A stretch of 33,779 nucleotides of DNA from an uncultured Ruminococcus sp. Lineage in GTDB: Bacteria; Bacillota; Clostridia; UBA1212. Shown here piece after piece: positions 6,885 through 27,857 of this stretch. The number at the start of each line of letters is the position of its first letter. Within the stretch, counting starts at the first letter, position 1. The DNA lies in NCBI GenBank assembly GCA_902782645.1, contig CACZNV010000171.1:1-33779 (forward strand). The letters run 5' to 3'. The notes under the pieces were generated by a model, which was not told where the DNA came from, ran no database searches, and saw nothing but the letters and a program-made list of their open reading frames with translations. The position numbers were made by a program, and so were the translations under genes.

Positions 6885-6909
6885 CTAAAATGAGTAAAGA
6901 GTAAAAACT

Positions 6910-7080
6910 TGATTTTTGAGTTATTTTTCCGTGCGCGACCCCGACGCTGTACGAAGGTACTGCGAGCGGGGAGCTCGCGGAAAGCAAGTCGCAAGCAATC
7001 GTCGTAAGACACCTTGCAGAATAGATATAAAGTTCGGCCGCCTTATATCATCTGCGACTTGCGTAAAGAACCAAAAATCA
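6910..7080 (-). repeat. Structured 171-174 bp intergenic repeat, copy 1 (inverted orientation)
   Basis: First of three copies of a dispersed element, here on the minus strand between the MBOAT and SGNH genes. Its outer ends form an inverted repeat (TGATTTTTG at 6910-6918, CAAAAATCA at 7072-7080). An inner pair GCAAGTCGCA / TGCGACTTGC and a GC-rich multi-part hairpin containing GCGAGC/GCTCGC and GTAC/GTAC follow. The corresponding stems in the other copies differ in sequence but still pair. There is no open reading frame shared intact by all copies. Together with the short flanks it fills the 221-bp gap between the two genes and ends just before the GAAAGGAGG region upstream of the next start. 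Confidence 0.85.
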
Positions 7081-7105
7081 CGAAAGGAGGCGCCGCAATT
7101 AAGTT

Positions 7106-8536
7106 ATGGCAAAAAGAATAGTTGTAATACTTCTGTCCCTTGTGCTGCTTGCGGCGCCGTTTGCCGCGGTATTTGCCCTGGCGCAAAACGTGAAGGGCGT
7201 CTACAGCCGCACCTTCACCGCCGAGCTGCCGCGCAAATATGACTATCTTTACGCCGCAGAGGGCGAAAAGATAGTCGTTGTAGGCGGCAGCTCCGTGTGC
7301 TTCGGTCTTGACTCGGCCCTGATGGAGGAACTGACGGGCCGCAAAGTTGCGGATTTCGGCCTCTATGCCACCCTGGGCACAAAGGTCATGCTGGACCTTT
7401 CAAAGAGGGCAATCAAATCCGGCGACACGGTCATCCTGGCACCGGAGCTTGACAGTCAGACCCTCTCCCTTTACTTTAACCGCAGCGCCGTCCTTGAGGC
7501 CCTTGACGGCCGCTGGGACATGGTGAGAGACATTGACGACAATGACATTGGCGGTCTCGCAGGGGCCTTCCTCAGCTACCTCTCGAAAGCCACGGATTTT
7601 CGCCGCCGCGGCATATTCCCCGACCCCTCAGGCGTTTACAACATCTCCTCGTTTAACGAGTACGGCGACATTTCCTACGAAAGACCCGCCAATGTAATGG
7701 CCCTTGGCTACGACGCCAACCGCCCCGTCGACCTTTCACCTGACATCATATCCGATGATTTCATTGACTACCTGAACGGTTATATTGACGACTGTGCCGC
7801 AAAGGGGGCTGATGTGTGGTTCAGCTTCTGCCCCGTGAACAGGAGCGGTCTCAAAGCAGGCACCACCGCAGACTCGATTTACAGCTTCTACAGGTATCTT
7901 TCGAAGAAGCTGCATTGCCGTGTGATATCCGATATAAACGACTATATCCTTGACCAACAGTATTTTTACGACACCAACTTCCATTTGAATGACATTGGCG
8001 TCAAAATCAGGACTCAGACCCTTTCAAGGGACCTTCTAAGGGCCGAGGGGGACAACCGAACCGTGAAGATAGATATTAAGGATGTACCCGCAGAGGCAAC
8101 CCCCGAGCCCACGCCCTTTGTGATTGACGAGCCCGACGAGGTGTTTGTATTCACCTCTTTCGGAAGGGGACTTGCCGTGGAGAGCGTTCTGCCTGCCGCC
8201 AAGACATTGACCTCCCTCGACATTCCCAGGGAGTTTGACGGCAAGCCCGTCTACGCCATCCTTGCAGACGCTTTTTCCGGCTGCGAAAACCTGACCTCGG
8301 TCACCATCCGCTCAAACATCGTTTTCATCGCCGACGGCGCATTCGACATCCCCACCCTGAAGAGTGTTTTCATAGACGCCAAGGACTCCGGAAGCATGGA
8401 GGCCGGCGACAACATTTTCGGTTCCAACACATCCGCCGAGATTATCCTTCCCGACACCGAAAGCTACGAAAATTTCGTCACGGGCTACTGGTGGAGCCTC
8501 TACGGCGGCAGAATGAAGATAAAGTCCGGCGGGTGA
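7106..8536 (+). CDS. Exported SGNH/DltD-like protein with C-terminal LRR_5 module, partner of MBOAT
   Basis: A 476-residue protein with an N-terminal hydrophobic segment (about residues 4-27) that acts as signal peptide or anchor. The SGNH-like domain spans about 50-320. Block I is VVGGSSVCFG with Ser62 the likely nucleophile, and the last block DTNFHLND supplies Asp289 and His293. A short PTP linker leads to a BspA-type LRR_5 module (about 380-440; AFSGCENLTSVTI and GAFDIPTLKSVFI). The protein is homologous to the C-terminal domain of the lipoprotein at 2860-5133 but carries its LRR after, not before, the SGNH domain. The likely role is transfer of an acyl group outside the membrane from the MBOAT enzyme to a glycan or wall polymer. 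ATG 7106 follows GGAGG at about 7086-7090 with a longish spacer; no better start exists nearby. Confidence 0.75.
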   Translation: MAKRIVVILLSLVLLAAPFAAVFALAQNVKGVYSRTFTAELPRKYDYLYAAEGEKIVVVGGSSVCFGLDSALMEELTGRKVADFGLYATLGTKVMLDLSKRAIKSGDTVILAPELDSQTLSLYFNRSAVLEALDGRWDMVRDIDDNDIGGLAGAFLSYLSKATDFRRRGIFPDPSGVYNISSFNEYGDISYERPANVMALGYDANRPVDLSPDIISDDFIDYLNGYIDDCAAKGADVWFSFCPVNRSGLKAGTTADSIYSFYRYLSKKLHCRVISDINDYILDQQYFYDTNFHLNDIGVKIRTQTLSRDLLRAEGDNRTVKIDIKDVPAEATPEPTPFVIDEPDEVFVFTSFGRGLAVESVLPAAKTLTSLDIPREFDGKPVYAILADAFSGCENLTSVTIRSNIVFIADGAFDIPTLKSVFIDAKDSGSMEAGDNIFGSNTSAEIILPDTESYENFVTGYWWSLYGGRMKIKSGG

Positions 8537-8598
8537 CCTCAAAGGCTTTAAGAATGCTTGAGGAAACTTTGGACGGAGACAAACCGCCAAGGGTTCTC

Positions 8599-8627
8599 TT
8601 GCACTCCGCCACCCTCCGTTGTATAAT
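8599..8627 (+). promoter_or_regulatory. Sigma-70/SigA-type promoter for the GT2 gene
   Basis: TTGCAC (8599-8604), a 17-bp spacer, then TATAAT (8622-8627): a perfect -10 and four of six -35 bases at ideal spacing. It lies 46 bp upstream of the glycosyltransferase ATG. The gene therefore probably has its own transcript, separate from the O-acylation cluster. Confidence 0.75.
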
Positions 8628-8656
8628 CTAAACATACAAAACCGCCACGGTTGTAT
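8619..8656 (+). promoter_or_regulatory. Operator-like TTGTAT/ATACAA half-sites over the -10 region
   Basis: TTGTAT (8619-8624) and ATACAA (8634-8639) form an inverted repeat with a 9-bp centre that overlaps the -10 box, and a third half-site TTGTAT lies at 8651-8656. The arrangement resembles a repressor operator covering the transcription start. The regulator is unknown, and the AT-rich half-sites could be chance. Confidence 0.35.
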
Positions 8657-8673
8657 TTAAGGAGAATGATAAA

Positions 8674-9606
8674 ATGTCAAAACCCACTCTTTCGGTTGTT
8701 GTACCGGTCTATAATGAAGAAGAAGTCATCAATGAGAGCTACAGACGCCTCACCGAAGTCCTTGAGCAGACGGGGGAGTCTTATGAGATCATATTTGTAA
8801 ACGACGGAAGCCGCGACAAAACCCTGGCGCTGGGCCTTGAAATCTGCAAGGCCGACAAACGCGTCAAGATGATCGACTTTGCCCGCAATTTTGGCCACCA
8901 GCTGGCCATCACCGCCGGTATGGACGCAAGCTCAGGAGACGCCGTTGTGGTCATCGACGCAGACCTCCAGGATCCTCCGGAGGTGATACCGCTCATGATC
9001 GAAAAGTGGCGCGAGGGCTACGAAATCGTATACGGCAAACGCCTCAAGAGGGAGGGCGAGTCTGCTTTCAAAAAGTTTACCGCCAAGATGTTCTACCGCA
9101 CCCTCAACAAGATGACGGATGTGGCTATCCCTGTGGACACGGGCGACTTCAGACTCATCGACCGCAAGGTCTGCGACGCGCTGAAAAAGGTCCCCGAGCA
9201 CAACAGATACGTGAGAGGCATTGTGAGCTGGCTGGGCTATAAGAGCTGCCCGGTCGAATTCCAGCGCCACAAACGTTTCGCGGGCACCACAAAATATCCG
9301 CTCAAGAAGATGATCAGGTTCGCCTCCGACGCAATCATGTCCTTCTCTTACAAGCCGCTCAAACTCGCCAATCTCTTTGGCGGGCTCTCTATCTTCGCAT
9401 CAATCGTGCTCCTGGTGTTTTATGCGATATTTAAGCTCCTGAATCCCCTCACATCCCTTCTCATAGCGGGACTGTTTGTGGCAGGGCTGCTGTTTGTCTG
9501 CCTTGGCGTCATAGGAAGTTATATTGCGAGAATGTGCGACGAGGTCAGAAACAGGCCCCTTTACCTGATAAGGAACAAGCACAACTTTGATGATGAAGAT
9601 AAATAA
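8674..9606 (+). CDS. GT2 family glycosyltransferase, DPM1/GtrB/ArnC-like, membrane anchored
   Basis: A 310-residue polyprenyl-phosphate glycosyltransferase. The N-terminal GT-A domain starts with SVVVPVYNEEE, has FVNDGSRDKT and the metal-binding DAD at residues 95-97 within IDADLQDPPE. RFAGTTKYPL precedes the C-terminal part, as in GtrB/DPM1 proteins. Two hydrophobic helices (about residues 228-252 and 258-284) anchor it in the cytoplasmic membrane. Such enzymes load a sugar from a nucleotide donor onto undecaprenyl or dolichyl phosphate for later use outside the cell. A strong AAGGAG lies 9 bases before ATG. Its position after the O-acylation cluster suggests a shared role in surface glycan decoration, but it has its own promoter and terminator. 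Confidence 0.92.
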   Translation: MSKPTLSVVVPVYNEEEVINESYRRLTEVLEQTGESYEIIFVNDGSRDKTLALGLEICKADKRVKMIDFARNFGHQLAITAGMDASSGDAVVVIDADLQDPPEVIPLMIEKWREGYEIVYGKRLKREGESAFKKFTAKMFYRTLNKMTDVAIPVDTGDFRLIDRKVCDALKKVPEHNRYVRGIVSWLGYKSCPVEFQRHKRFAGTTKYPLKKMIRFASDAIMSFSYKPLKLANLFGGLSIFASIVLLVFYAIFKLLNPLTSLLIAGLFVAGLLFVCLGVIGSYIARMCDEVRNRPLYLIRNKHNFDDEDK

Positions 9607-9633
9607 CGGAAGATAAAGCAGCCTCGAACGGTT

Positions 9634-9674
9634 AATCCGAACCTCTTGCCAATCGCCTTGAGGTTCGGATTTTT
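9634..9674 (+). terminator. Rho-independent terminator after the GT2 gene
   Basis: A 12-bp perfect stem (9634-9645 with 9660-9671; AATCCGAACCTC and its complement), a 14-nt loop, and T residues continuing to 9674. It begins 28 bp after the glycosyltransferase stop. Confidence 0.85.
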
Positions 9675-9910
9675 GTAAGAATGGAGATATCGTGAATGCA
9701 AAAACAGATTGCCCGGATGCAAGCTTTACGCAGCTAGCTACAATTTGATTATAGATATAAAATGTACTATGTTTTATGGAGGCAATACTGCTCCTGATTT
9801 TTGTTGTAAATAAAAGGTGCCGGTAGTATACTGAAGCGGTATTGGCGTGTTCCGCAGAGGGACTGCGGGCGCTGGAATGGCTTTAATTACCACCGGGCGG
9901 AGACAAAACT
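9675..9910. other. AT-rich intergenic leader before the MATE gene
   Basis: The gene-free gap 9607-9910 is 304 bp: it holds the GT2 terminator and then this stretch, which is clearly more AT-rich than its neighbours. It includes a weak bulged hairpin near 9778-9797 (GGAGgCA/TGCTCC) followed by a short T run, and the MATE promoter. A 14-codon ATG frame at 9769-9813 has no ribosome-binding site. No RNA gene was recognised. Confidence 0.5.
9804..9832 (+). promoter_or_regulatory. Promoter for the MATE-GH127 pair
   Basis: TTGTAA (9804-9809), a 17-bp spacer, and TATACT (9827-9832). Each box keeps most consensus bases and spacing is ideal. It lies 78 bp before the GTG start of the transporter gene and is the only convincing promoter in the gap. 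Confidence 0.65.
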
Positions 9911-11293
9911 GTGAGGCTTGTCAGAACTGAAATGAATATGACGGAGGGGCCGATTGCGGGCAAGATTGTTGCCTTTGCGGTGCCCCTGTTTTTCGGCAAT
10001 CTGTTCCAGCAGCTTTACAATACTGCGGATGCCTTTGTGGTGGGAAATTTCCTTGGCGATGATGCCCTTGCGGGTGTCAGCTCCACGGGGAGCCTCATTT
10101 TTTTGCTGGTTGGCTTTTTCAGCGGCCTTGCCATGGGCGCGGGCGTCGTGATTTCGAAGTATTACGGAGCAAAAGACGTTGCAAAAATGCGCACGGCAAT
10201 CCACACGAGCTTCGTGTTTTTTGCGATATGCGGTGTGCTGTTCAGTGTCATTGGCGCTTTCGGAGCTCGCCCGATGCTGCAGCTGATGCAGACGCCTTCG
10301 GACGTCATGGGAGAGGCATTGGCGTATGTAAGGACATACTTTGCGGGGCTTTTCACCATGATTATGTACAACGTCTGCATGGGTATCATGCAGGCTGTTG
10401 GCGACTCTGTGCACCCCCTCATCTACCTCATCATCTCCTCGGTTTTGAACGTGGGGCTGGACTACCTGTTTATAGGGTGGCTGAAGCTTGGCGTGTTCTC
10501 CGCAGCCCTTGCCACCGTTATTTCGCAGTTCATAAGTGTTGTTCTCTGCCTTGCAAGGCTTTTCACCATTAAGGAAAGCTACAGGATAAGGTTCAAGGAT
10601 CTTAAAATAGATTTCAAAATGCTGGGACAGATCGTGAAGAACGGTTTGCCTTCGGGCCTTCAGAACTCCGTCATTTCTATCGCCAATGTGGTCGTTCAGG
10701 GCCACATCAACTACTTCGGAGCGGAGGCAATGGCCGGCTGCGGCGCCTTCTCAAAGATTGAGGGTTTTGCATTCCTGCCCGTCACCTGCTTCTCCATGGC
10801 CATCACAACTTTCGTGAGCCAGAATCTCGGCGCCGGCAGACCCGACAGGGCAAAGAAAGGCGCCCGTTTCGGAGTTGTAACTGCGGTTATCATCGCGGAG
10901 ACTATTGGCGTGCTCATGATAGTGTTTGCCAGGTATCTCATTGACGCGTTTACGGAGAGCGAGGAGGCTTTGCAGTTCGGCATTGAAAAGTCGAGGATAT
11001 GCTGCGGGTTCTTCTTCCTGTGCGCACTGTGCCACTGCTTTGCGGCGGTTCTGAGGGGCGCGGGAAGACCTGTGGTGGCAATGGCCGCCATGCTTGTGTT
11101 CTGGTGCGTCGTGAGGGTCTCGATTCTGTTCATCTTTGTGCCTGTAACCAAGACAATCCACATAGTCAACTGGGTATATCCCATAACCTGGTTCCTGTGC
11201 GCCTCCGTGCTCGCGTGCTACTTTTTCTTCGCCGACTGGACCGGCGAGAGAAAAGCCGCCAAGCTGAAGGCCGCGGCAGCTGTAAAGGAGTGA
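9911..11293 (+). CDS. MATE family multidrug/sodium antiporter
   Basis: A 460-residue polytopic membrane protein with the MATE layout: 12 hydrophobic helices in two related halves. The start GPIAGKIVAFAVPLFFGNLFQ and ADAFVVGNFLGDDALAGVSSTG are typical of the NorM/DinF group, and ITTFVSQNLGAGRPDRAKKG marks the second half. Such carriers export cationic drugs or metabolites using Na+ or H+ gradients; the substrate is not predictable. The start is GTG 9911, eight bases after GGCGGAG; ATG codons at 9932 and 9938 are alternatives. Its TGA lies directly beside the start of the GH127 gene, and the ribosome-binding site of that gene is inside this gene's last codons, so the two are probably cotranscribed. 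Confidence 0.93.
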   Translation: MRLVRTEMNMTEGPIAGKIVAFAVPLFFGNLFQQLYNTADAFVVGNFLGDDALAGVSSTGSLIFLLVGFFSGLAMGAGVVISKYYGAKDVAKMRTAIHTSFVFFAICGVLFSVIGAFGARPMLQLMQTPSDVMGEALAYVRTYFAGLFTMIMYNVCMGIMQAVGDSVHPLIYLIISSVLNVGLDYLFIGWLKLGVFSAALATVISQFISVVLCLARLFTIKESYRIRFKDLKIDFKMLGQIVKNGLPSGLQNSVISIANVVVQGHINYFGAEAMAGCGAFSKIEGFAFLPVTCFSMAITTFVSQNLGAGRPDRAKKGARFGVVTAVIIAETIGVLMIVFARYLIDAFTESEEALQFGIEKSRICCGFFFLCALCHCFAAVLRGAGRPVVAMAAMLVFWCVVRVSILFIFVPVTKTIHIVNWVYPITWFLCASVLACYFFFADWTGERKAAKLKAAAAVKE

Positions 11294-11295
11294 CT

Positions 11296-13182
11296 TTGAA
11301 GCATATGAATTATACGTCTCTAAGCAAACCGGCTGATGAAAAATCGTCAGACAGTCTTTTCGCGCTGCCTTCCGGAAGCGCCGTTTTTGAGGGCCCGATG
11401 ATTGAGGCTCTGGATTTTGTGGAAAACAAGTCCCTTCTTGACCCGAAGCTCTGGGCCCTTTTTATAGAACAGTTCAGGCTCGGAGACGTCGACGTGACCG
11501 ATTACGGCTGGCGGGGCGAGTACTGGGGCAAGATGGTGCGGGGCGCCTGCATCACATACGGCTGCAACCGCGACGCCAAGCTCTACAGGCAGCTTGAAGC
11601 CACCGTTCGGGACATTCTCACCGCTGAGGACCCCTTCGGACGCATCTCCACCTACACGATCCCCGCGGAGTTTCACGGCTGGGACGTCTGGTGCAGAAAG
11701 TACGTGATGCTGGGTCTTGAATATTTCCTGGAAATATGCGCCGACAACAACCTGGCGTATATGGTATTGGCGTCTTTGAAAAGGCAGGCGGACTACCTTA
11801 TCGCCAAGACAGGCTGCCGGGAGGTTGGCAAGATCGATGTGACATACACCTCTGAGTGGTGGGAGGGGCTCAACGCCTCGTCAATACTTGAACCCGTTGT
11901 GAGACTCTACAAGCTCACAAGCGATGAAAAATACCTTGAATATGCAAGAAAAATCGTGGCCTGCGGAGGCATGCGCTCCTTTGACATGTTCAAGGCGGCT
12001 CTTGAGGGCAAAACGGCTCCCTACGAGATGCCGGTCACCAAGGCCTACGAGATGATGTCGAACTTTGAGGGCATCATTGAACTCTACAGGGTCACCGGCA
12101 ATGAAGACTACAAAACAATGGCTCTCAATTTTGCGGAGCTTGTGCAGCAGACGGACATAACGGTCATAGGAAGTGCGGGCACCACCCACGAGCTTTTCGA
12201 CCACTCTGCGGTGAGGCAGTTTGACCCTTCGTTTACGGGAATTATGCAGGAAACCTGCGTCACGGTGACATGGATGAAGTTCTGCCTGCAGCTTTTGAGG
12301 CTCACAGGAGACGCCAAGTACGCCGACCGCATTGAAATCTCCGCCTACAATGCACTCCTGGGGGCTGTGAACTTCAAAGAAAACCCCTTTGAGGGCGAAG
12401 TTTTCGCCTTCGACAGCTACAGCCCGCTGCTGAATTCTGTGCGCGGGCTTGGGGTTGGGGGCTATAAAACCCTTGGCGGTTCCTCAAAGCACTGGGGCTG
12501 CTGCGTGGCCATCGGCTCGGCGGGCACAGGCCTTTTCCCGGCTTACGCCGTGATGAAAAACAGCCGGGGTATCACGTTTAACTTTTACATCGGCGGCAGA
12601 GTGAAGACGGATTTTGCGGACCTTGAAATCAAAACCTCCTACCCCTACGGCGACACCGCGGACATTACGGTTGACCCGAAGACCGGCGGGACTTTCGGCA
12701 TCTTCCTCAGGATCCCCTCCTGGAGCAGGCTGACTGAGGTTTCGGTAAACGGCTCGAAGACCGTATGCGAGGTTGAAAACGGGTACGCATCGATACTAAG
12801 AAACTGGCAAAAATGGGATAAAATCACCGTCAAGTTTGACATGGGGACAAGGGTTGTCCGGGCCGCCGACATAGACCCTGATGCAGCCGCCAATGCAAAG
12901 AACCATTTCGCGCTCATCAAAGGCCCCCTGGTTCTCGCAAGGGACGAGGCGATGGGCCACGACCTTGAAACCCCTGTAAACATAGTTGAAAAAGAGGGCT
13001 ATGCAGAGGAAGCATTGCCGGCTTCCACCCCGAAAAAAGAACCCGCCAATGCCCCATTCCCCAGACTCACCGTCTCCGTCCTGACGGAGAGCGGACCGAT
13101 GGAAATGTGCGACTACGCCTCCTGCGGACAGGACTGGCGGAACGGCAAAAAAATGACCGCCTGGATTATTTCCGGAGAATAA
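11296..13182 (+). CDS. GH127 family glycoside hydrolase (beta-L-arabinofuranosidase-like)
   Basis: A 628-residue protein of the GH127/DUF1680 family: an (alpha/alpha)6-barrel followed by beta-sandwich domains. The zinc/thiolate active site described for HypBA1 (Glu-x-Cys plus a Cys-Cys pair) is visible as Glu319-Thr-Cys321 in MQETC and Cys402-Cys403 in HWGCCVAIG, with nearly the same spacing. The expected activity is release of beta-L-arabinofuranose from arabinose-rich plant glycans; the related GH146 family is an alternative. No signal peptide is seen, so it probably acts on imported oligosaccharides. Start: AAAGGAG at 11284-11290 favours TTG 11296 (5-nt spacer); ATG 11305 is also in frame but 14 nt away. 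No arabinose operon or dedicated importer adjoins, only the MATE gene. Confidence 0.88.
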   Translation: MKHMNYTSLSKPADEKSSDSLFALPSGSAVFEGPMIEALDFVENKSLLDPKLWALFIEQFRLGDVDVTDYGWRGEYWGKMVRGACITYGCNRDAKLYRQLEATVRDILTAEDPFGRISTYTIPAEFHGWDVWCRKYVMLGLEYFLEICADNNLAYMVLASLKRQADYLIAKTGCREVGKIDVTYTSEWWEGLNASSILEPVVRLYKLTSDEKYLEYARKIVACGGMRSFDMFKAALEGKTAPYEMPVTKAYEMMSNFEGIIELYRVTGNEDYKTMALNFAELVQQTDITVIGSAGTTHELFDHSAVRQFDPSFTGIMQETCVTVTWMKFCLQLLRLTGDAKYADRIEISAYNALLGAVNFKENPFEGEVFAFDSYSPLLNSVRGLGVGGYKTLGGSSKHWGCCVAIGSAGTGLFPAYAVMKNSRGITFNFYIGGRVKTDFADLEIKTSYPYGDTADITVDPKTGGTFGIFLRIPSWSRLTEVSVNGSKTVCEVENGYASILRNWQKWDKITVKFDMGTRVVRAADIDPDAAANAKNHFALIKGPLVLARDEAMGHDLETPVNIVEKEGYAEEALPASTPKKEPANAPFPRLTVSVLTESGPMEMCDYASCGQDWRNGKKMTAWIISGE

Positions 13183-13191
13183 AATAACAGC

Positions 13192-13228
13192 CGCGGCGCC
13201 CCTGTTTTGAATTGATAAGGGCGCCGCG
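13192..13228 (+). terminator. GC-rich hairpin after GH127, possible terminator
   Basis: A 10-bp stem (CGCGGCGCCC at 13192-13201 with 13219-13228) and a 17-nt loop starting 10 bp after the GH127 stop. It is followed by only a weak T-containing stretch, so intrinsic termination may be partial. The loop and 3' arm also contain the next promoter. Confidence 0.5.
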
Positions 13229-13240
13229 TTCTGTTATAAT
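13212..13240 (+). promoter_or_regulatory. Near-consensus promoter upstream of the DUF2284 gene
   Basis: TTGATA (13212-13217), a 17-bp spacer and TATAAT (13235-13240). Five of six and six of six consensus bases make it one of the strongest promoters in the window. The -35 box sits in the loop of the preceding hairpin. The predicted leader is about 95 nt and contains a small hairpin (GCGGCG at 13247-13252 with CGCCGC at 13259-13264). Confidence 0.8.
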
Positions 13241-13343
13241 GTGGGTGCGGCGAAAAAGCGCCGCAAAAGGAACACATTGCGGTAAAAATGCGAAAAACGC
13301 GGGGCTTTGAAACCCGTCTTCGAAACACTTTGCGAGGCCGGCT

Positions 13344-13886
13344 GTGGAAGAAAACGAAAACCTGTTTTTGAATATCCGTATTGGCGATTTAAAAGCCCTT
13401 GGCTTTACCCGTTTTGCGGTCATAAAAACATCCGAGGTCACTTTTTCCCCGGAGGTTAGACAGATGTGCGAGGTCAACCGCTGCGGCCGTTACAACACCA
13501 CATGGGCCTGCCCGCCGGGCATCGGAACCCTGGAGGAGTGCATGGCCCGCTGCAAGGTTTTCGAAAACTGCGCGGTTTTCTCAAGAGCCTACGAGCTTGA
13601 GGACAGCTTCGATTTTGAGGGCATGATGGAGGGTCACGAGGATTTCTCAAAAGCCTCCGAAGAGCTGCGTAAAAAAATTGAGGGAAAGTTCCTGATGCTC
13701 TCGGTGGAGGGCTGCTCCAAGTGCGGAAAGTGCACATATCCCGACGCCCCCTGCAGGTTCCCGGAAAGACTGTCCGGCTCCCTGGAAGGCTACGGAATAT
13801 TCGTGAACAGGCTTGCCGCCGCCGCAGGCATGCCCTACAACAGCGGGCCGAACACTGTTACTTATTTCGGCGCCGTATTTTTCTAA
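13344..13886 (+). CDS. DUF2284 cysteine-rich putative metal-binding protein
   Basis: A 180-residue protein of the DUF2284 family, found in anaerobes and of unknown function. Two cysteine clusters are clear: CEVNRCGRYNTTWACPPG with EECMARC just after it (about residues 43-71), and GCSKCGKCTYPDAPCRFP (about 126-143). The second resembles a ferredoxin-like iron-sulfur binding loop, so a metal or Fe-S role is inferred, not shown. There is no signal peptide. GTG 13344 is the only start upstream of the conserved region, and its ribosome-binding site is weak (GAGG about 8 nt upstream). It appears to be a single-gene unit with its own promoter, followed 6 bp after its stop by repeat copy 2. Confidence 0.85.
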   Translation: MEENENLFLNIRIGDLKALGFTRFAVIKTSEVTFSPEVRQMCEVNRCGRYNTTWACPPGIGTLEECMARCKVFENCAVFSRAYELEDSFDFEGMMEGHEDFSKASEELRKKIEGKFLMLSVEGCSKCGKCTYPDAPCRFPERLSGSLEGYGIFVNRLAAAAGMPYNSGPNTVTYFGAVFF

Positions 13887-13892
13887 AACACT

Positions 13893-14066
13893 GTTTTTGG
13901 GCTCTTTACGCAAGTCGCGAAAGAGAACTAATGACAGGCGACTGAAGTTCTTGAAGCACACAAGGTGTCTAACGACGATTGCTCGCGACTTGCTTTGCGC
14001 GAGCTCCCCGCTCGCAGTACCTCCGTACAGCGTCGGGGTCGCGCACGCAAAAATAGCTCCAAAAAC
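13893..14066 (+). repeat. Structured 171-174 bp intergenic repeat, copy 2
   Basis: Second copy, between the DUF2284 gene and the fumarase genes. The outer inverted repeat is GTTTTTGG (13893-13900) and CCAAAAAC (14059-14066). The inner pair is CAAGTCGCGA / TCGCGACTTG, then the GC-rich arm with GCGAGCtccccGCTCGC and CGCaGTACctccGTACaGCG. The outer pair differs in sequence from copies 1 and 3 but is still complementary. The right half is the best conserved part among copies. The element fills most of the 247-bp gap before the fumarase alpha gene. Confidence 0.88.
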
Positions 14067-14087
14067 GTTTTTTGGGCTCTTTACGCA
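14067..14087 (+). repeat. Solo left-end fragment of the structured repeat
   Basis: Directly after copy 2 the first 20 bases of that copy recur (TTTTGGGCTCTTTACGCA is shared, with one extra T), but the rest of the element is absent. Copy 2 is thus bracketed by direct repeats of its own left end. This may be a remnant of a tandem copy or the product of a slippage or insertion event. Confidence 0.6.
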
Positions 14088-14133
14088 TCTTACCGGGTGC
14101 ATAGCAATACAAATGCAAAAGAGGTGACTTTTT

Positions 14134-15060: not shown

Positions 15061-15073
15061 CGGAGGAAAAAGC

Positions 15074-15607: not shown

Positions 15608-15639
15608 AAGCGCTGCAGAGCAACAAGAGGGAGAAGAGT

Positions 15640-16119: not shown

Positions 16120-16125
16120 CTGAAC

Positions 16126-17275: not shown

Positions 17276-17354
17276 GAGCGCATTAAAACATACCGACAAC
17301 AACTTTTAAACAGCTTCGCGGCTTCTTCGAAATTCACCTAAAAAGAGGGAACCT

Positions 17355-17765: not shown

Positions 17766-17799
17766 AAGCCGCTTCCCAATATACACTTTTGGAGGAAAA

Positions 17800-19110: not shown

Positions 19111-19116
19111 TAAAAG

Positions 19117-19956: not shown

Positions 19957-19957
19957 C

Positions 19958-21205
19958 ATGAAAGATCTGAGTCTTGTTGACGGCATCATAGAGATAAACA
20001 GATTTGAAAAAGAACCCTTTACAAGGGTGGTTTTGCGGTACGAGACCAAGGCGGCCGCAAGGCTTATCGTCAGCTACAAAGAGGGTGACGATGACATTAT
20101 TTACCTTGAAAAAGGGAAAAACGAGTTCAGGTGGTTCGTGCCGGGATACGTTGACGGCGCCTCAAGGACCGGTATTTCGACGGTTAAATATGTAACCCTG
20201 GAGGAAGCGCCGGCGGAGCTTAAGATTCTTTCCGTGGATTTTGAAAAGGTGCCGGCGCCTTCAGGCGACACATCGTTTATTGAAAACGACTTCCTTAAGG
20301 TGGGCGTCAGGCTCATCTGGGGCGGCGGAATAAACTGCATTGAGGACAAAAAGTGCCCTGTGGAGGGGCTGGGAAACCTGGTGAACCAGGCAGACACCGG
20401 CCGTCTCATCCAGCAGTCCTACTACGGCACAGGCGAGTGCGCCGAGAATCCGGATTTTCGCTTTGGCGAGTTCATGGGTCACAACTGGTGCTACAATCCT
20501 GTACAGGGCGGCGACAGGGGCAATCAGCGCTCCAGACTGATCGACTTCAAAAAGACTGACGACAGTATTTACATAAAGGCTCAGCCCAAGGACTGGGGCA
20601 AGATCGGATGGGACACGCCAAGCTACATGGAGAACACGTATATCCTTGGCGGCGAGATGATAAGGGTCGACAACAGGTTCGTGGATTTTTCCTGCTGGAC
20701 CCACGGCTGCAACACCCAGGAGCTGCCCGCTTTCTACACAGTGAGCTATTTAAGAAGATTCACCTGGTACGACGGGGTGGAATCCTGGCAGGGGAAACCC
20801 CTTGCAATCAGGGACGACCTTAACTTCTGGGGCCTTCCGGAATACTCCGAGTCCTGCACCTTCCGCATCAGAAAATCCGCCAAGGAAACCTGGTGCGCCT
20901 GGGTGAGCCCCGAGGACGACTACGGCATCGGCATTTACGTTCCGAATATAGACGTTTTGAAGGCCGGCAAGTTTTCCTACGACGGCTCCAAGCGCCCGGA
21001 GGACGGCTCCACGAACTATGTGGCGCCTCTTGCCAGGGTCAGAATCATATCCATGAAGCCCATCGAGTACAGCTATCTTATCACCACGGGCAGCGTTGGC
21101 GGCATCCGGGAAAAATTCACTGCCCACAAGGATTTTGCGGACAACAGCCGTCTCTCCGAAGACCATATCTGCGAGAGAATGGCAGACGACGCTCCCGCAT
21201 ATTGA
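19958..21205 (+). CDS. Uncharacterised 415-residue beta-rich protein (possible carbohydrate-active enzyme)
   Basis: I do not recognise the family. The protein is soluble, has no signal peptide and is rich in Trp, Tyr and Gly. An N-terminal beta domain (about residues 1-95; FVPGYVDGASRTGIS) precedes a larger domain with VRLIWGGGINCIED, GRLIQQSYYGTGE, MGHNWCYNPVQGGD and THGCNTQELPAFYTVSYL. The density of aromatic and acidic residues and the repeated beta strands recall glycoside-active beta-sandwich or mutarotase-like folds, but no catalytic motif can be named. It begins 1 bp after the GDPD stop and lies 51 bp before an ADP-ribosylglycohydrolase-family gene. An operon role in glycan or sugar-conjugate breakdown is therefore plausible but unproven. 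Confidence 0.7.
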   Translation: MKDLSLVDGIIEINRFEKEPFTRVVLRYETKAAARLIVSYKEGDDDIIYLEKGKNEFRWFVPGYVDGASRTGISTVKYVTLEEAPAELKILSVDFEKVPAPSGDTSFIENDFLKVGVRLIWGGGINCIEDKKCPVEGLGNLVNQADTGRLIQQSYYGTGECAENPDFRFGEFMGHNWCYNPVQGGDRGNQRSRLIDFKKTDDSIYIKAQPKDWGKIGWDTPSYMENTYILGGEMIRVDNRFVDFSCWTHGCNTQELPAFYTVSYLRRFTWYDGVESWQGKPLAIRDDLNFWGLPEYSESCTFRIRKSAKETWCAWVSPEDDYGIGIYVPNIDVLKAGKFSYDGSKRPEDGSTNYVAPLARVRIISMKPIEYSYLITTGSVGGIREKFTAHKDFADNSRLSEDHICERMADDAPAY

Positions 21206-21256
21206 CGGGCAGATTGTTGCCGCAGGATAAAAGAGTTCTCACAAAGGAGAAAAAAG

Positions 21257-23263
21257 ATGCAAGTTAACTACAAAGAATTTGTTGACAGAGTCAGGGGCTG
21301 CTTCCTCGGCAAGACAGTCATCGGCACACTTGGGGCTCCCTACGAAGGCGTGAAAATGCCTATGAATCTTCAGTTTAAGCCTGAAATGATAGACACCATG
21401 CTGCCCAACGACGACCTGGATCTTCAGATACTCTGGCTTGAGGTGGTTGAGAAAAAGGGATTCCGATTCACTTCAAAGGACCTTCTGGACTCCTTCTGCG
21501 AGAACTGCGACTATTCCCCCGGCGAGTACGCTGTAATGCGCAAAAACCACGAGAAGGGCATCATGCCTCCTTACTCGGGCTCCTTCTGCAACGACTTTTA
21601 CATAAACGGCAACGGCTGCCCCATAAGGTCTGAGATTTGGGCCTGCCTGAGCCCCGGAAACCCTGTTCAGGCCGCAACCCTTGCCGGCAGGGACGGCGTG
21701 ATAGACCACGCGGGTATAAGTATCGACGGGGAGCTGTTCTTTGCGGCTGTGGAGTCCCTTGCTCTTTGCGGAAAGGGAGGAACCGGCAGCTTTGAGGACC
21801 TTTTCAGACTCTTTTCTGAGGGCATCGGCTTTGTGCCCAGGGATTCTGTCATCAAGGAAGCGGTCCTTTTCACCGCGGATCTCTGCAGAAAGCACAGCGA
21901 CATAAAAGAGGTGCTTTGCGAGATATTGACAAGGTACGGCCACCTCGACTGCACCAACATGCTTCAGAACTTTGCCATAACGGTTGCTGCGCTTCTCCTT
22001 GGCGGGGGCGATATTATTAAAACAGGCATGCTGGCCCTCAACTGCGGCTTTGACACTGACTGCACCTGCGCCACCGCAGGAGCAATTCTTGGCGCAATTA
22101 TAGGCGCGGCGAAGCTGGACGAGGCTTACGGCTGGAAAGACATCAAATATGTCCTTGGCGTCAAGGCCTCAAGGCGCAGTGACAGCGTTATCGACCTTGC
22201 GGACGACATTGCAATGCTTGCCGTGGCCCTTTCCAGGAGCGGAGACAGCGAGGTTGATATCGCGGAGGCGCCACTTGCCGGCGTCAGAAAATTTGCGGAA
22301 GAGGACCCGATTCTGTTCGGCGTCGAGTACGAAAACGGGGACCCCTCCTTCGGCACCGCCAAGGACGTGACCGTAAAACTTTCATTTAAGAACACCACGG
22401 AAAGGGCGGTCTACATAGACTACGCCCTGGACATGCCCGCCAACACGGCAATAAAAAAGCGGGACGAGACCCTTTCAAGCTACGGCCGCACCATTCTGCC
22501 CGGCGACACCACAGAGGAGGTTTTCGTGCTGGGAATGAAGGATTTATCCGGCGTGCTCTATGAGAAAAACATTGTCAAGGTAAATGTTGGCGGCGACGTC
22601 AGCGCAAATTTCACGTTCGGTATTTCCGGGAACAAGATTTGGCGCCTCACGGGCCCCGTCTGGAGCACCACACCTCCCACGGACGACGAAATACTGTCGC
22701 GGGGCAAGGGCTATTGGCACGTTTTCCCTCAGGCGAAGACCGAGGCGGAGAGCATCGACAATGTGAGAGAGTTCCACCTGAATTTCGCAAGAGACACAAG
22801 AACGGACATATTCACCATGAGGGAGCTTTTCGAGGAGCTGCCCCGGGGTGTGAACTACATGAGCGGAGGCACCGGGGTCATCTCAAGGCCTTACAGGGTT
22901 TCCGACGTGGAGACAAGGGAGGACTCCTTTGAATTCAGCGACTTTTTCGGCTTCAAGGGCCCCTGCGTCGTTTACCTTTCGCAGATACTTGTTTCGCCGG
23001 AGGACATGACAGTATTTGCCATGCTGGGATGCACCGGTCCCTTCAAGTTCTTTGTGAACGGCGATCTCATTGGCGAGAGGCACGAGGCAACGACTTTTGA
23101 TGCGGAGAACGCCCATTTTGAGGGTGTAAGGCTGCGGAAGGGCGAAAACAGGATAGTTCTTAGACTAACGAGACTGAGCGGCGACGCCAAGTACTCGCTG
23201 ATCTTCTCAAAGGGACTGACCTGCTCGACACACCACACTTGTTTTGGCACGAAGCTTATTTGA
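21257..23263 (+). CDS. ADP-ribosylglycohydrolase-family protein fused to C-terminal beta domains
   Basis: A 668-residue protein whose first ~340 residues match the ADP-ribosylglycohydrolase (DraG-like) all-helical fold: VRGCFLGKTVIGTLGAPYEG, then NDDLDLQ (Asp52, Asp53, Asp55), AGRDGVIDHAGISIDGELF and CGFDTDCTCATAGAILGAIIG (Asp266, Asp268). These acidic groups form the di-metal site in the family. The C-terminal ~320 residues look like an Ig-like domain followed by a galactose-binding-type sandwich (FKFFVNGDLIGE, GVRLRKGENRIVLRL). That fusion and the sugar transporter upstream argue for glycan or sugar-conjugate hydrolysis rather than protein de-ADP-ribosylation. AAAGGAG precedes the ATG. The stop lies inside a short direct repeat. 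Confidence 0.83.
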   Translation: MQVNYKEFVDRVRGCFLGKTVIGTLGAPYEGVKMPMNLQFKPEMIDTMLPNDDLDLQILWLEVVEKKGFRFTSKDLLDSFCENCDYSPGEYAVMRKNHEKGIMPPYSGSFCNDFYINGNGCPIRSEIWACLSPGNPVQAATLAGRDGVIDHAGISIDGELFFAAVESLALCGKGGTGSFEDLFRLFSEGIGFVPRDSVIKEAVLFTADLCRKHSDIKEVLCEILTRYGHLDCTNMLQNFAITVAALLLGGGDIIKTGMLALNCGFDTDCTCATAGAILGAIIGAAKLDEAYGWKDIKYVLGVKASRRSDSVIDLADDIAMLAVALSRSGDSEVDIAEAPLAGVRKFAEEDPILFGVEYENGDPSFGTAKDVTVKLSFKNTTERAVYIDYALDMPANTAIKKRDETLSSYGRTILPGDTTEEVFVLGMKDLSGVLYEKNIVKVNVGGDVSANFTFGISGNKIWRLTGPVWSTTPPTDDEILSRGKGYWHVFPQAKTEAESIDNVREFHLNFARDTRTDIFTMRELFEELPRGVNYMSGGTGVISRPYRVSDVETREDSFEFSDFFGFKGPCVVYLSQILVSPEDMTVFAMLGCTGPFKFFVNGDLIGERHEATTFDAENAHFEGVRLRKGENRIVLRLTRLSGDAKYSLIFSKGLTCSTHHTCFGTKLI

Positions 23264-23292
23264 GGCTTTTTACGGTTGAGGCTCTTTACGCA
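23260..23292 (+). repeat. Two-unit direct repeat resembling the left end of the structured element
   Basis: TTTGAGGCTTTTTACGG is followed at once by TTGAGGCTCTTTACGCA. The second unit shares GGCTCTTTACGCA with the left end of copy 2 (13893 onward) and with the solo fragment at 14067. No right end is present, so this is probably a degenerate remnant in the ADPRH-pth gap. Confidence 0.5.
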
Positions 23293-23321
23293 GAATAACA
23301 AGTTTTATTGGAGATTATATT

Positions 23322-23975
23322 ATGTCGATTTTTGACAAGCTGTTTCGCAAGGACGGCGGAATTGAAACCTATATCATTGCCGGTCTCGGAAATCCGGGGC
23401 CCGAGTACGAGATGACGAAGCACAACTGCGGCTACAGGACCGTTGATATTGTTGCCGAGAAGCTGGGGATAAGCTTTACAAAGCGCAAGTTCAATTCCCT
23501 GTATTGCGACTGCAAGATAAAGAAGGGCGGAGATGAGGTCAGAGTAATCCTCATGAAGCCTGAAACTTATATGAACAACAGCGGCGAAGCCATTGAGGAG
23601 GCTGCATCCTTCTACAAGGTGCCCGCGGAGAACATCATCGTTATATACGACGACTGCGACGTGGAGCCCGGCCGCATCCGGGTGAGAGGCTTCGGCAGCG
23701 CAGGCACCCACAACGGTATGGAGTCGGTGGTGTCCCACCTGGGTACCGAAAAATTCCCCCGCATCAGGGTGGGCATCGGCAGGCGCATGCCAAACGAGGA
23801 CATGGTCAAGTTTGTGCTCTCGGGCTTTTCCGAGGACAAGGAAAAGCTTGTGAAGGAGGCTCTCGTGTTTGCCGCCAATGCATCCCTTGCCGTCATCAAA
23901 AAAGGCATCGAGAAGGCAATGACCGAGTTCAACTCAAAGCAGGCAAAGCCGGATAACAACGGGGACAAAGACTGA
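23322..23975 (+). CDS. pth: Peptidyl-tRNA hydrolase
   Basis: This enzyme releases peptides from peptidyl-tRNA that drops off ribosomes. At 217 residues it is slightly longer than usual because about 15 residues (MSIFDKLFRKDGGIE) precede the first strand YIIAGLGNPGPEYE. Key residues are Asn24, His34 in KHNCGYRTVD, the asparagine pair in ETYMNNSGEA, and Asp110/Asp111 in VIYDDCDV. The later RGFGSAGTHNGMESV region and RIRVGIGRR are also conserved. Most homologues read HNVGF or HNAGF where this one has HNCGY. TTGGAG about 10 bases upstream serves as ribosome-binding site. It precedes mfd by 33 bp, the same order as spoVC-mfd in Bacillus. Confidence 0.95.
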   Translation: MSIFDKLFRKDGGIETYIIAGLGNPGPEYEMTKHNCGYRTVDIVAEKLGISFTKRKFNSLYCDCKIKKGGDEVRVILMKPETYMNNSGEAIEEAASFYKVPAENIIVIYDDCDVEPGRIRVRGFGSAGTHNGMESVVSHLGTEKFPRIRVGIGRRMPNEDMVKFVLSGFSEDKEKLVKEALVFAANASLAVIKKGIEKAMTEFNSKQAKPDNNGDKD

Positions 23976-24008
23976 TAAGCCGGTTTTAGACAGTAAAATA
24001 GAGAGACA

Positions 24009-27000
24009 TTGACGGACTTAAAAGATTTTCTGAATTTAATAAAGAACTGGGAGGGTTACCCCCGGCTGGCGCACCGCGTCGACTTCGGGGAGCCCTGCAG
24101 GATTGAAGGCGTTTCGGGCTGCGCGGCAAGGTACTTCGCAGCCGCTTTTGCTGCGTCTTCAAGGGTAAAACGGATAGTATATATCGCACCCAACGAGTTT
24201 GCGGCAAAAAGAGCCGCGGAAGATTTTGACTGCTTCATTGGCGACGGCGCTCTGCTCCTTGAGCCCTCGGACTTTATGTTTTTTAACGCCTTTGCGAGAA
24301 ACAGGGACAGGGAGTACAAAAGGGTTCAGACCCTGAAGAGGCTTGCCTCCGGTGACTGGAGCTGCCTTGTGCTTTCGCCTGCGGCCTTGATGCAGCCCAC
24401 CGTGGCTCCCGAAAGGTTCAAAAACTGTGATTTTTGCCTTGAAGAAGGTGAGGACTACGATCTCTTGTCCCTTGCCGACAAGCTCTCCCAAATGGGCTAC
24501 GTGCGGGTGGGTATGGTTGACGGACCGAGACAGTTCTCCATACGCGGAGATATTTTCGACATATTCCCCACATCCTCTGAAACCCCTTACAGGGCCTATT
24601 TTTTCGGCGATACCATCGATGTGATCAACAGCTTCGATCCGGTGTCCCAGAGAGGCATGGAGCGTGTGGGAAGAATAGAGGTTTCGCCGGAGAGCGAAAT
24701 CAGGCTTTCGGAGAGGACTCCGGAGGAAATCAAATATTTGATTGAAAGGTCCCTTGGCGAGACATGCGGCAGGCTGATTGCGGAAGGGTCCTTGGCGTCA
24801 AAATTCAGAAGCGAGGCAAAGAGCGCCGCCAGCCTTATTAAAGAGGGCGCGGAGTTTCAGGGCATGGACAGGTACATCCCTTTCATTATCGGCAGGGATC
24901 ACACCGTGCTTGACTACTGCAAGGGGGCACTGTTTTTCTGCGAGGACAGGCTTTCGGTTCTGAAGACTGCGGATGTTATGCTTGACGAGCACCGCCGGGT
25001 CTGCGAGACCGTCTCCCGGGTGAATTTCACGCCGGACGAGCTTTACGGCTGGTTCCTCTCGACAAACGAGGTCGCCGCAATTATTGACGCCAAGGCAATC
25101 AAGCTCGAAACCTTCGACGAGGAAGCCGAGGCCATGCTTGCGGAGAGAAAACTGGCCGAGGCGGGGCTGACTCAGAGAACTTTCTCGAAAAAACTGGTGC
25201 CGAAGGGGCTGAGACCCGAGGAGGCGCCCCCCGAATACCCGGACGAGTCCGGCGCGTACACATTCATACTCAAAAGCAGAAAGATCACAAGCGCCGCCGG
25301 CAATGAGATCACGATAAAAAACTACCTTGGCGAGTGGTTCGAAAAGGGCGTAAACATATATGTTGCGTCAAACAAAAACGACAGGTTCAAACGCCTGGTG
25401 GGCGAGCTTGAAAAGATAACCCGGGACATCCCTGAGATCGAGTGCGTCAACATGCCCGGAATAGAGGACGGGTTTGAACTTTTTGACGCGGGTTTTGCCC
25501 TGGTTTCGGAAAAAACATTCTTTGCCATGGCTTCCGGCGGCACCGCCAAGAAGTCCAAAAAAACAAAGGACGAGGACTTCTTCAACGACATCCACCCCGG
25601 GGACTATATTGTGCACGACATCCACGGCATTGGCGTGTTCAGGGGCATCGAGGCGAGAGAGGTCTCCGGCGTCACCAAGGACTATGTGGTGATTGAATAC
25701 GCCGGGGGCGGAAAGCTTTTTCTGCCTTCGCTGGAGCTGGGCACCGTTCACAGGTACGTGGGCAGCGACGACAATCTGCCCCGCATCAGCACCCTGGGAA
25801 ACAAGGACTGGCAGCGGGAAAAGGAGCGGGTCAAGAAATCCCTGCGGGAATACGTGGAAGAGCTTGCGGCGCTCTATGCGAAGCGCCGGGAACTGAAGGG
25901 CTTTGCCTTCCCGAAGGACGACGAGCTGCAGGCTGAGTTTGAGAGCAAATTCGGGTTTGAGCCCACCTCCGATCAGCTTGTCTGCACGGAAGAGATTAAG
26001 ACCGACATGGAGATGACAAAACCCATGGACAGGCTGCTCTGCGGCGACGTGGGATTCGGCAAGACAGAGGTGGCTTTCAGGGCCGCATTCAAGGCGGTGG
26101 CTGCGGGAAAGCAGGTGGCAATACTGGTCCCCACCACGGTCCTCTGCCAGCAGCACTACTTCACGGCGGTTGAACGCTTTGCAGATTTTCCCGTAAATAT
26201 AGACTATCTCTGCAGGTTCAGAAGCGGCTCTGACGTCAAAAAGATCAAGGAGGGGCTGGCGGACGGCAGCATTGACATAATTATCGGAACCCATGCACTG
26301 GTTAAGGGCAAGGACGTGACTTTCAACGACCTGGGGCTCGTGATTGTTGACGAAGAGCAGCGCTTTGGCGTCATGCAGAAGGAAAAGTTGAACCTGCTTT
26401 ACCCGTTGGCGGATACCCTTTATATGAGCGCCACGCCGATTCCACGCACCCTCAATATGTCCCTCTCAAAGATCAGGGATATCAGCGTCATCACCGAGGC
26501 GCCAAGGAACCGCAACCCGGTCCAGACATATGTCATCAAGATAAGCGACGACGTCATCAGGAACGCAATCCTGAGGGAGATGGCCCGCAACGGCCAGGTG
26601 TTCTACCTCTACAACAGGGTGAAAAGCATTGGCGACAGGCTGGAGTGGCTTGGAAAGCTGGTGCCCGAGGCGAGAATTTGCGTTGCCCACGGCCAGATGC
26701 CGGAGCACGAACTGGAGCGGGTGATGCGGGACTTCATTGCGAAAAAGTACGACGTGATGCTCTGCTCCACCATCATCGAGTCCGGTCTTGATATCGCCAA
26801 TGCAAACACCATCATAGTCGAGCACGGCGAGCGCCTGGGACTTGCCCAGATGTACCAGATAAGAGGCAGGGTGGGCCGCTCCGACGTGAGGGCCTACGCT
26901 TACATAACCTACCCCGACGAGGAGACCCTCACGAGCGACGCCTGGCAGAGGCTGAAGGCGATAAAGGAATTCACCGAATTCGGCTCAGGCATCAAAGTCG

Positions 27001-27623
27001 CCATGCGGGACCTTGAAATAAGAGGCGCAGGGGCGGTGTTCGGCGAGCGGCAGTCCGGAGACGTGGTTACCATTGGCTATGACCTTTACAACCGCATGCT
27101 GAGCGACATGATAACCGAGGTGACCGGCGGACCCGCCAAGGAGGACGTGACCGTCACCATCGATTTCACCGTAAGTTCATACATCCCCGGAGACTACATT
27201 TCTCTGCCTGACGCAAGAATGGAGATTCACAGAAAGATCGCTGCCGTCTCCTGCGACAACGACATTCTGGACCTCGAGGAGGAGCTTCTGGAGCGGTTCC
27301 CCGGCGACATCCCTCAGAACATCGTGAACCTGATGCACCTTTCCCACATCAAGGCCCTTGCCGCCGAGTGCGGCATCAAGACCGTGGTGCAGCTTAAGAA
27401 CAAGGTGGAGATGGACATCTGCGACGAGCACCTTTTCGACACAAAGATAAAGGAAAACTACAAGATGATTGTAGAAAACTACAGGGGCAGGTTCAACGTG
27501 ATGGCCTCCGAAAAGAGAATTTACGCCCAGTATTCGATTCCCGAGAGGGTTTCGCTTTACAAGCACGCGGAAATCATTGAGAGCGTTGAAAAGTTCCTTA
27601 AAGTTCTTGCGGGAAAAAAATAA
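24009..27623 (+). CDS. mfd: Transcription-repair coupling factor Mfd
   Basis: A 1204-residue DNA translocase that removes stalled RNA polymerase and recruits UvrA. Domains in order: UvrB-like N-terminal module (about 1-330); RNA-polymerase-interacting CarD-like domain (about 525-600; GDYIVHDIHGIGVFRG and GGKLFLPSLEL); superfamily 2 helicase core with Walker A GDVGFGKTE (Lys685) and Walker B DEEQ (781-784); SATPIPRTL and HGQMPEHELE; and a C-terminal TRCF domain (about 1050-1180). Length is normal for the family. The start is taken as TTG 24009, the first codon giving a sensible N-terminus; its ribosome-binding site is weak, and translation may depend on coupling to pth 33 bp upstream. Confidence 0.96.
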   Translation: MTDLKDFLNLIKNWEGYPRLAHRVDFGEPCRIEGVSGCAARYFAAAFAASSRVKRIVYIAPNEFAAKRAAEDFDCFIGDGALLLEPSDFMFFNAFARNRDREYKRVQTLKRLASGDWSCLVLSPAALMQPTVAPERFKNCDFCLEEGEDYDLLSLADKLSQMGYVRVGMVDGPRQFSIRGDIFDIFPTSSETPYRAYFFGDTIDVINSFDPVSQRGMERVGRIEVSPESEIRLSERTPEEIKYLIERSLGETCGRLIAEGSLASKFRSEAKSAASLIKEGAEFQGMDRYIPFIIGRDHTVLDYCKGALFFCEDRLSVLKTADVMLDEHRRVCETVSRVNFTPDELYGWFLSTNEVAAIIDAKAIKLETFDEEAEAMLAERKLAEAGLTQRTFSKKLVPKGLRPEEAPPEYPDESGAYTFILKSRKITSAAGNEITIKNYLGEWFEKGVNIYVASNKNDRFKRLVGELEKITRDIPEIECVNMPGIEDGFELFDAGFALVSEKTFFAMASGGTAKKSKKTKDEDFFNDIHPGDYIVHDIHGIGVFRGIEAREVSGVTKDYVVIEYAGGGKLFLPSLELGTVHRYVGSDDNLPRISTLGNKDWQREKERVKKSLREYVEELAALYAKRRELKGFAFPKDDELQAEFESKFGFEPTSDQLVCTEEIKTDMEMTKPMDRLLCGDVGFGKTEVAFRAAFKAVAAGKQVAILVPTTVLCQQHYFTAVERFADFPVNIDYLCRFRSGSDVKKIKEGLADGSIDIIIGTHALVKGKDVTFNDLGLVIVDEEQRFGVMQKEKLNLLYPLADTLYMSATPIPRTLNMSLSKIRDISVITEAPRNRNPVQTYVIKISDDVIRNAILREMARNGQVFYLYNRVKSIGDRLEWLGKLVPEARICVAHGQMPEHELERVMRDFIAKKYDVMLCSTIIESGLDIANANTIIVEHGERLGLAQMYQIRGRVGRSDVRAYAYITYPDEETLTSDAWQRLKAIKEFTEFGSGIKVAMRDLEIRGAGAVFGERQSGDVVTIGYDLYNRMLSDMITEVTGGPAKEDVTVTIDFTVSSYIPGDYISLPDARMEIHRKIAAVSCDNDILDLEEELLERFPGDIPQNIVNLMHLSHIKALAAECGIKTVVQLKNKVEMDICDEHLFDTKIKENYKMIVENYRGRFNVMASEKRIYAQYSIPERVSLYKHAEIIESVEKFLKVLAGKK

Positions 27624-27630
27624 ATAGCTG

Positions 27631-27659
27631 TTGACAAACCAATCGGGTTCATGTATACT
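27631..27659 (+). promoter_or_regulatory. Near-consensus promoter for the ylxM-ffh-rpsP operon
   Basis: TTGACA (27631-27636; perfect -35), a 17-bp spacer and TATACT (27654-27659; five of six). It lies 8 bp beyond the mfd stop. The predicted transcript would start near 27666 and carry a leader of about 230 nt that contains the entire copy 3 of the structured repeat. Confidence 0.85.
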
Positions 27660-27680
27660 GTCAACCGATTCGCTTGACAG
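27658..27680 (+). promoter_or_regulatory. Inverted repeat CTGTCAA-N9-TTGACAG over the transcription start
   Basis: A perfect 7-bp inverted repeat (27658-27664 and 27674-27680) overlaps the last bases of the -10 box and the likely start site, a typical place for a repressor. It also repeats the TTGACA hexamer of the -35 box. No known regulator is assigned. Confidence 0.4.
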
Positions 27681-27684
27681 GCGA

Positions 27685-27857
27685 CGATTTTTGACTCTTT
27701 GCGCAAGCCGTGAACAAAATTCACGACAGAAACAATCTTTGTAAAGCGCATAAGGGGTCTGACGACAATTACTCACGGCTTGCTTTGCGCGAGCTCCCCG
27801 CTCGAAGTACCTTCGTACATCTTCGGGGTCGCGCACGCAAAAATAGTTCAAAAATCG
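27685..27857 (+). repeat. Structured 171-174 bp intergenic repeat, copy 3 (in ylxM leader)
   Basis: Third copy, with the longest exact outer inverted repeat: CGATTTTTGA (27685-27694) and TCAAAAATCG (27848-27857). The inner pair is GCAAGCCGTGA with TCACGGCTTGC, and the right half holds CTTTGCGCGAGCTCCCCGCT and GTACcttcGTAC, nearly identical to copy 2. The left half is divergent apart from the pairing bases. An alternative small hairpin, CGTGAAcaaaaTTCACG, competes with the inner stem. The element lies wholly within the predicted 5' leader of the ylxM-ffh transcript, between promoter and first start codon. Confidence 0.88.

Follow-up and report, generated by a model that had tools for sequence, protein, structure and literature searches.

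Structured repeats positioned behind stop codons across Clostridia and their putative mobility as folded single-stranded DNA

The three related elements in the window (the whole 33,779-nucleotide stretch of DNA that was analysed) are members of a large family of structured repeats that had not been catalogued before; it has no Rfam match, and no description of it was found in a partial, open-licence set of papers. Small structured repeats are known in many bacteria, and most families of them are limited to a few species. The present family, which lacks an Rfam entry, is matched in 60 of the 391 sampled Clostridia genomes (approximately 15%), distributed over 35 genera, by a covariance model (R3) built from its second subclass. 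Comparisons of orthologous and duplicated sites show that the family moves and multiplies and that it inserts in sense orientation directly behind stop codons. Our preferred interpretation, held tentatively and with slightly less than even confidence, is that these are non-autonomous mobile repeats recognised as folded single-stranded DNA by a putative trans-acting enzyme. With these results, a new kind of mobile element targeted to gene ends becomes open to testing.

Anatomy and covariation of the window copies

The initial annotation had placed three copies of the element in the window, and covariance model matches confirmed their positions to within 1-2 bases. Copy 1 (6911..7079, minus strand) is a full-length element matched at 173.9 bits and is the sole window copy that lies antisense to the gene adjoining its own 5' end. 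It is trailed by a truncated 5' end (GTTTTTACTCTTTACTCA, 6891..6908, minus strand), recognised from its sequence as a typical deletion derivative. Copy 2 (13893..14066, plus strand), likewise a full-length model match, starts 6-7 nt past the stop codon of a DUF2284 gene (13344-13886) and is followed by another truncated 5' end that was recognised by sequence (GTTTTTTGGGCTCTTTACGCA, 14067..14087, plus strand). Copy 3 (27686..27856, plus strand), the remaining full-length model match, starts 62 nt past the stop of the gene at 24009-27623. Both the truncated ends beside copies 1 and 2 and the sense-oriented insertion directly behind stop codons are features beyond those initially described.

Elements of the family measure 150-240 bp and are organised as a three-way junction at which a long closing stem, P1, is joined by the variable arm P2 and the imperfect hairpin P3. 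The order of the unit is P1 5' arm, CTTTAC, P2 with a long variable loop, P3, AAAAATA and P1 3' arm. In copy 2, on the plus strand throughout, the P1 5' arm (GTTTTTGGGCT, 13893..13903) has its 3' partner at 14055..14066 (AGCTCCAAAAAC), and the conserved, unpaired CTTTAC junction occupies 13904..13909 between P1 and P2. The covarying P2 stem is formed by GCAAGTCGCGA (13910..13920) and TCGCGACTTGC (13983..13993), and P3, an imperfect hairpin with conserved internal loops and the apex GCAGTACNNNNGTACAGC, covers 13994..14051. This apex motif is common to the window class and subclass 2, and the CTTTAC junction is near-invariant across the genus as well as in G006 and at two further loci (L163 and L173). 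These stems are the outer and inner stems and the composite hairpin originally claimed, and the paired differences among the copies, including CTTTCC..GGAAA versus CTTTGC..GCAAA, were found as described. The reported difference at the apex is real, with GC/GC being present in copies 1 and 2 and GA/TC in copy 3.

Folding of copy 2 (13893-14066) was compared with 200 dinucleotide shuffles and gave z values of -4.1 as RNA and -5.6 as DNA. The three window copies by themselves are insufficient to prove covariation. An alignment of 24 copies from the same genome, made by MAFFT without structure, contained two-sided changes in 18 of 42 pairs with 98.5% of cells paired; this level of pairing was reached in none of 500 shuffles and dropped to 31-45% in slid registers. 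In a further alignment of 35 diverse copies, two-sided changes extended to 33 of the 42 pairs with 305 doubly changed cells, these counts being biased towards structure by the fitting of the alignment to the model. The covariation in these 24 and 35 copies supports the original suggestion of selection on, or copying through, a folded form.

In many copies from four of the genomes (G002, G003, G005 and G006) P1 extends 8-12 bp beyond the model. Here the P1 arms pair with their own partners (score of at least 6) in 50-100% of copies, 67% in G005, versus 0-5% with the partners of other copies, 17% in G005. Some of the arms include the host stop codon or the last codons of the host gene. The extension may have arisen through copying of the host gene end into the element or through later growth of a palindrome.

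Distribution, mobility and position behind stop codons

The genome from which the window derives (G000, a 2.1 Mb draft in which the window is contig 171) contains 72 matches to the covariance model built from 24 of its own copies. The search of related genomes with such models, which the initial annotation had proposed, recovered copies in the genus and in the wider Clostridia. All six genomes of the genus contain the repeats; they also occur weakly in one further genus of the same taxonomic family and in a single genome from a different family. Model R2 returned matches in 27 of the 391 sampled Clostridia genomes, and model R3, for which the numbers of matches within each genome stand for at least that many, also matches window-class copies in G000 and G003. 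A pattern scan picked up this fold, built on other stems, in Christensenella sp. UBA1782 and in two other Clostridia MAGs. A pattern match from Flavobacteriaceae (L152) was rejected as a chance match. The phage and plasmid collections that were searched held no copies, and IMG/VR yielded a single contig of 27.7 kb, putatively viral, with one copy (L262:11134-11334). Most of the compared genomes are drafts, and breaks of draft contigs inside elements lead to underestimates of the copy number and of large arrays. Contigs that start or stop inside elements are seen in G000 itself (for example L003, L004, L007, L035 and L057). Annotation is affected as well, since assembled contigs are frequently interrupted at the elements, whose sequence overlaps gene ends and terminators.

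Evidence for movement comes from orthologous sites. The site of copy 3 is empty in the syntenic relatives G001 and G004; such an insertion-free orthologous gap, one of the checks originally suggested, supports mobility and marks copy 3 as a recent insertion. At the site of copy 2 the gene end is conserved in both relatives, with only a mini derivative of the element in G001 and no full element in G004, and the syntenic gap of copy 1 in G001 carries a copy in the opposite orientation. In the sister species G003, two copies are 100% identical over 193 bp with unrelated flanks, and each lies exactly behind a host stop, one after ..ttcTAA and the other after ..aacTGA. The protein end encoded at the latter site (..LYVAN-stop or a near equivalent) is conserved in G000, G001, G002 and G004, and the element is absent there from the stretches shown of all four. 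One of these twins is flanked by a CTAA target-site duplication and the other by none, and no consistent target-site duplication was seen in the family. Orthologous arrays of G000 and G001 differ by deletions, changes in copy number and exchange of P3 arms. Two orthologous copies from different species (L068:1395-1567 and L082:94-267) were observed to have the same P2 and exchanged P3 arm types, a configuration that suggests conversion between copies.

The position of the elements relative to genes was evaluated in 112 arrays. A gene was called on the 5' side in 97 of these, in sense orientation in 84 and antisense in 13 (P = 7e-14); the antisense window copy 1 is an exception to the sense orientation. 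Gene calls followed a simple longest-ORF rule, by which individual cases may err. The P1 edge lies no more than 12 nt from the stop codon in 56 of the 84 sense arrays, a closeness that is inflated in part of the set because the P1 5' arm supplies stop-like triplets (in class 1 the arm itself carries a stop-like TGA or TAA). The stop-codon position of the G003 twin insertions is independent of such triplets. Such insertion, immediately behind stops and in a single orientation, is unusually precise and calls for a mechanism able to sense where genes end.

Strand preference and a putative mechanism

A plus-strand A.C cell corresponds to G.T or G.U on the minus strand. Among 50 subclass-2 copies, plus-strand G.T and A.C cells numbered 10 and 53, respectively (P = 3e-8), and any alignment bias should run against this A.C excess because covariance models favour G.U. 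In class 1 (own genus) the counts were even at 55 and 56, so that the strand argument for this class is one of folding energy only. Folding is more stable for the minus strand in 48 of the 50 subclass-2 copies and, with DNA parameters, in 71 of 84 class-1 copies. The best-folding strand is opposite to the upstream mRNA, as these data show for the broad subclass and suggest for the window class. A structured RNA on the sense strand, considered first in the present analysis, is weakened by wobble-type pairs that favour the opposite strand in the broad subclass, with the window class remaining even, and was dropped on the basis of these counts.

Rfam 15 gave no match in the window at the gathering threshold and only chance-level matches to the element, and for 20 subclass-2 loci, searched with E up to 1, nothing covered the element except noise below threshold. 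The initial annotation had likewise named no matching family. Its range of possible natures (structured RNA family, MITE or REP-like element) was right, and a narrower choice is possible given the lack of an Rfam family, of an association with Y1 transposase and of a consistent target-site duplication. The screen for a potential mover covered Y1 transposase, reverse transcriptase and integron integrase and yielded no enzyme. Autonomous copies with a gene between the element halves were considered and rejected; the 5' fragments lying before other genes, identified by eye as argB, murA, dnaK and others, look like deletion remnants beside ordinary genes.

By analogy with the attC sites of integrons, we infer a single-stranded DNA substrate and a trans-acting enzyme. 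The strand opposite the upstream mRNA, exposed as single-stranded DNA, would be the substrate of a putative recombinase or transposase supplied in trans, which would recognise the P3 apex together with the unpaired junction bases and would link the closing stem P1 to DNA beside a stop codon. Selection for a recognisable structure would keep P1, P2 and P3 paired while the sequence drifts, and the mechanism, selection or a combination of the two would favour sites just behind stop codons. Old copies decay through deletion and through arm exchange between copies. If the folded minus strand is indeed the substrate, the family would represent an independent parallel to attC in a class in which no integron integrase was found here, and could bear on how recombination sites become attached to genes. 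A more specific version, which we judge rather unlikely as a whole, is that the putative enzyme differs from the attC/IntI, HUH/Y1, DDE and retroelement systems, inserts three-way-junction single-stranded DNA at stop codons throughout Clostridia and possibly copies the host gene end into the closing stem.

Competing explanations and variants of the element

The main rival is that the minus strand encodes a structured noncoding RNA which converges on the neighbouring gene, ends at the stop codon of that gene and would spread as a selfish or regulatory RNA gene. We regard this as a possible though rather unlikely explanation. The wobble-type pairs favour the minus strand, whose RNA folds better by 5-9 kcal/mol; its P3 internal loops read as purine-rich and GA-type, and in subclass 2 its P1 frequently terminates in a U-run close to the stop of the neighbour. 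Such a gene is at odds with the 5' side of the minus strand, which displays no promoter-like enrichment and no conserved sequence (flank conservation stops near P1), and it would be antisense to both neighbours wherever these two genes run in the same direction, as they do in 33 of the 56 arrays for which both were called and the upstream one is in sense orientation. A 3'-UTR or terminator element of the upstream mRNA, acting from the plus strand in the manner of REP or ERIC effects on mRNA stability, would account for the sense orientation of 84 of 97 arrays and for the terminator-like hairpin with a T-run found in the plus-strand P2 loop of 32 of the 50 subclass-2 copies. Transcripts would then often stop within P2 and leave out P3 as well as the P1 3' arm, however, and only 2 of 88 class-1 copies carry such a hairpin. 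The plus-strand excess of A.C over G.U in subclass 2 is also the opposite of what RNA selection on that strand would leave, and we consider this explanation improbable. Templated correction of palindromes during replication could keep the stems perfect with no structural selection, in which case the element would be an ordinary palindromic repeat. The even G.T and A.C counts of class 1, the scarcity of mismatch intermediates relative to double changes and the copy-by-copy extension of P1 arms into host sequence all agree with such a process. The imperfect P3 loops, the CTTTAC junction and the apex are nevertheless conserved over many families and have not been corrected to perfect pairing, and the strand asymmetry of subclass 2 would be unexpected, which leaves this process with a similarly small probability.

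That the elements are integron attC sites, or REP sequences served by a Y1 transposase, is very improbable. In integrons the bottom strand of attC is bound (PMC3053210), and the element resembles attC in a structure that is kept as the sequence varies and in its sense position behind stop codons, and would also do so in its putative folded, single-stranded bottom strand. It differs in its three-way junction, in its dispersal behind housekeeping genes, in having no cassette arrays and in lacking the core boxes RYYYAAC/GTTRRRY (0 of 89 and 0 of 51 copies). None of the 391 genomes holds an integron integrase above the TIGR02249 cut-off, the sub-threshold matches being taken to be general tyrosine recombinases. 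With the REP/REPIN sequences and their RAYT (Y1) enzymes the family has in common short structured repeats at high copy number downstream of genes (PMC3733652). REPs are 20-40 bp in length with GTAG or CGTC tags, whereas the 150-240 bp element forms a three-way junction and no GTAG or CGTC foot was found in its alignments. Moreover, Y1 transposase (PF01797) is absent from G000 and G003, 20 of the 60 carrier genomes lack it, and its presence is not associated with that of the element (Fisher P = 0.25). The MITEs, such as ERIC, Correia/NEMIS, RUP and YPAL, are similar in being intergenic, 100-200 bp long and built of inverted ends and long stem-loops (PMC2229807). The terminal repeats of the present element differ from these in that they covary per copy rather than forming a fixed transposase site; its P1 arms are copy-specific and not the fixed, shared terminal inverted repeats of DDE-type elements. 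It also differs in showing no consistent target-site duplication, in targeting stop codons and in occurring across many families within one class. Group IIC introns, which are likewise structured, insert into terminators or attC sites behind genes in a specific orientation, a behaviour to which that of the element is similar. They have been associated with integrons (PMC7923331). The element is about a tenth of their size and lacks intron domains, and no reverse transcriptase (RVT_1) was detected in G000 or G001, both copy-rich but incomplete drafts. Finally, the pneumococcal BOX, RUP and SPRITE repeats are likewise small interspersed repeats of Bacillota for which the mover is not known (PMC3049150); they differ in sequence and architecture and are not class-wide.

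Copies of the element are arranged singly or in tandem with 2-nt spacers, and 5' remnants and short derivatives produced by deletion are frequently seen. In many places a second variant is nested at the same P3-apex point of the first, and the full element with its nested apex variant looks as if it were a composite moving as a unit. The nested variant is approximately 150 bp long and has an extra CTTAAGC..GCTTAAG stem (L052:6922-7121, L051:3911-4260 and others). Three loci of families f22 and f32 (L208, L209 and L216) have a P3 with an extra hairpin inserted behind the conserved apex. Two to three mini elements of 44 bp, consisting of P1 only, stand in tandem upstream of a gene identified by eye as dnaK-like (L067:4606-4751). 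On contig 84 of G222, one gene is followed by a tandem row of five subclass-2 elements that repeat with a period of roughly 226-229 bp (L248:1501-2607).
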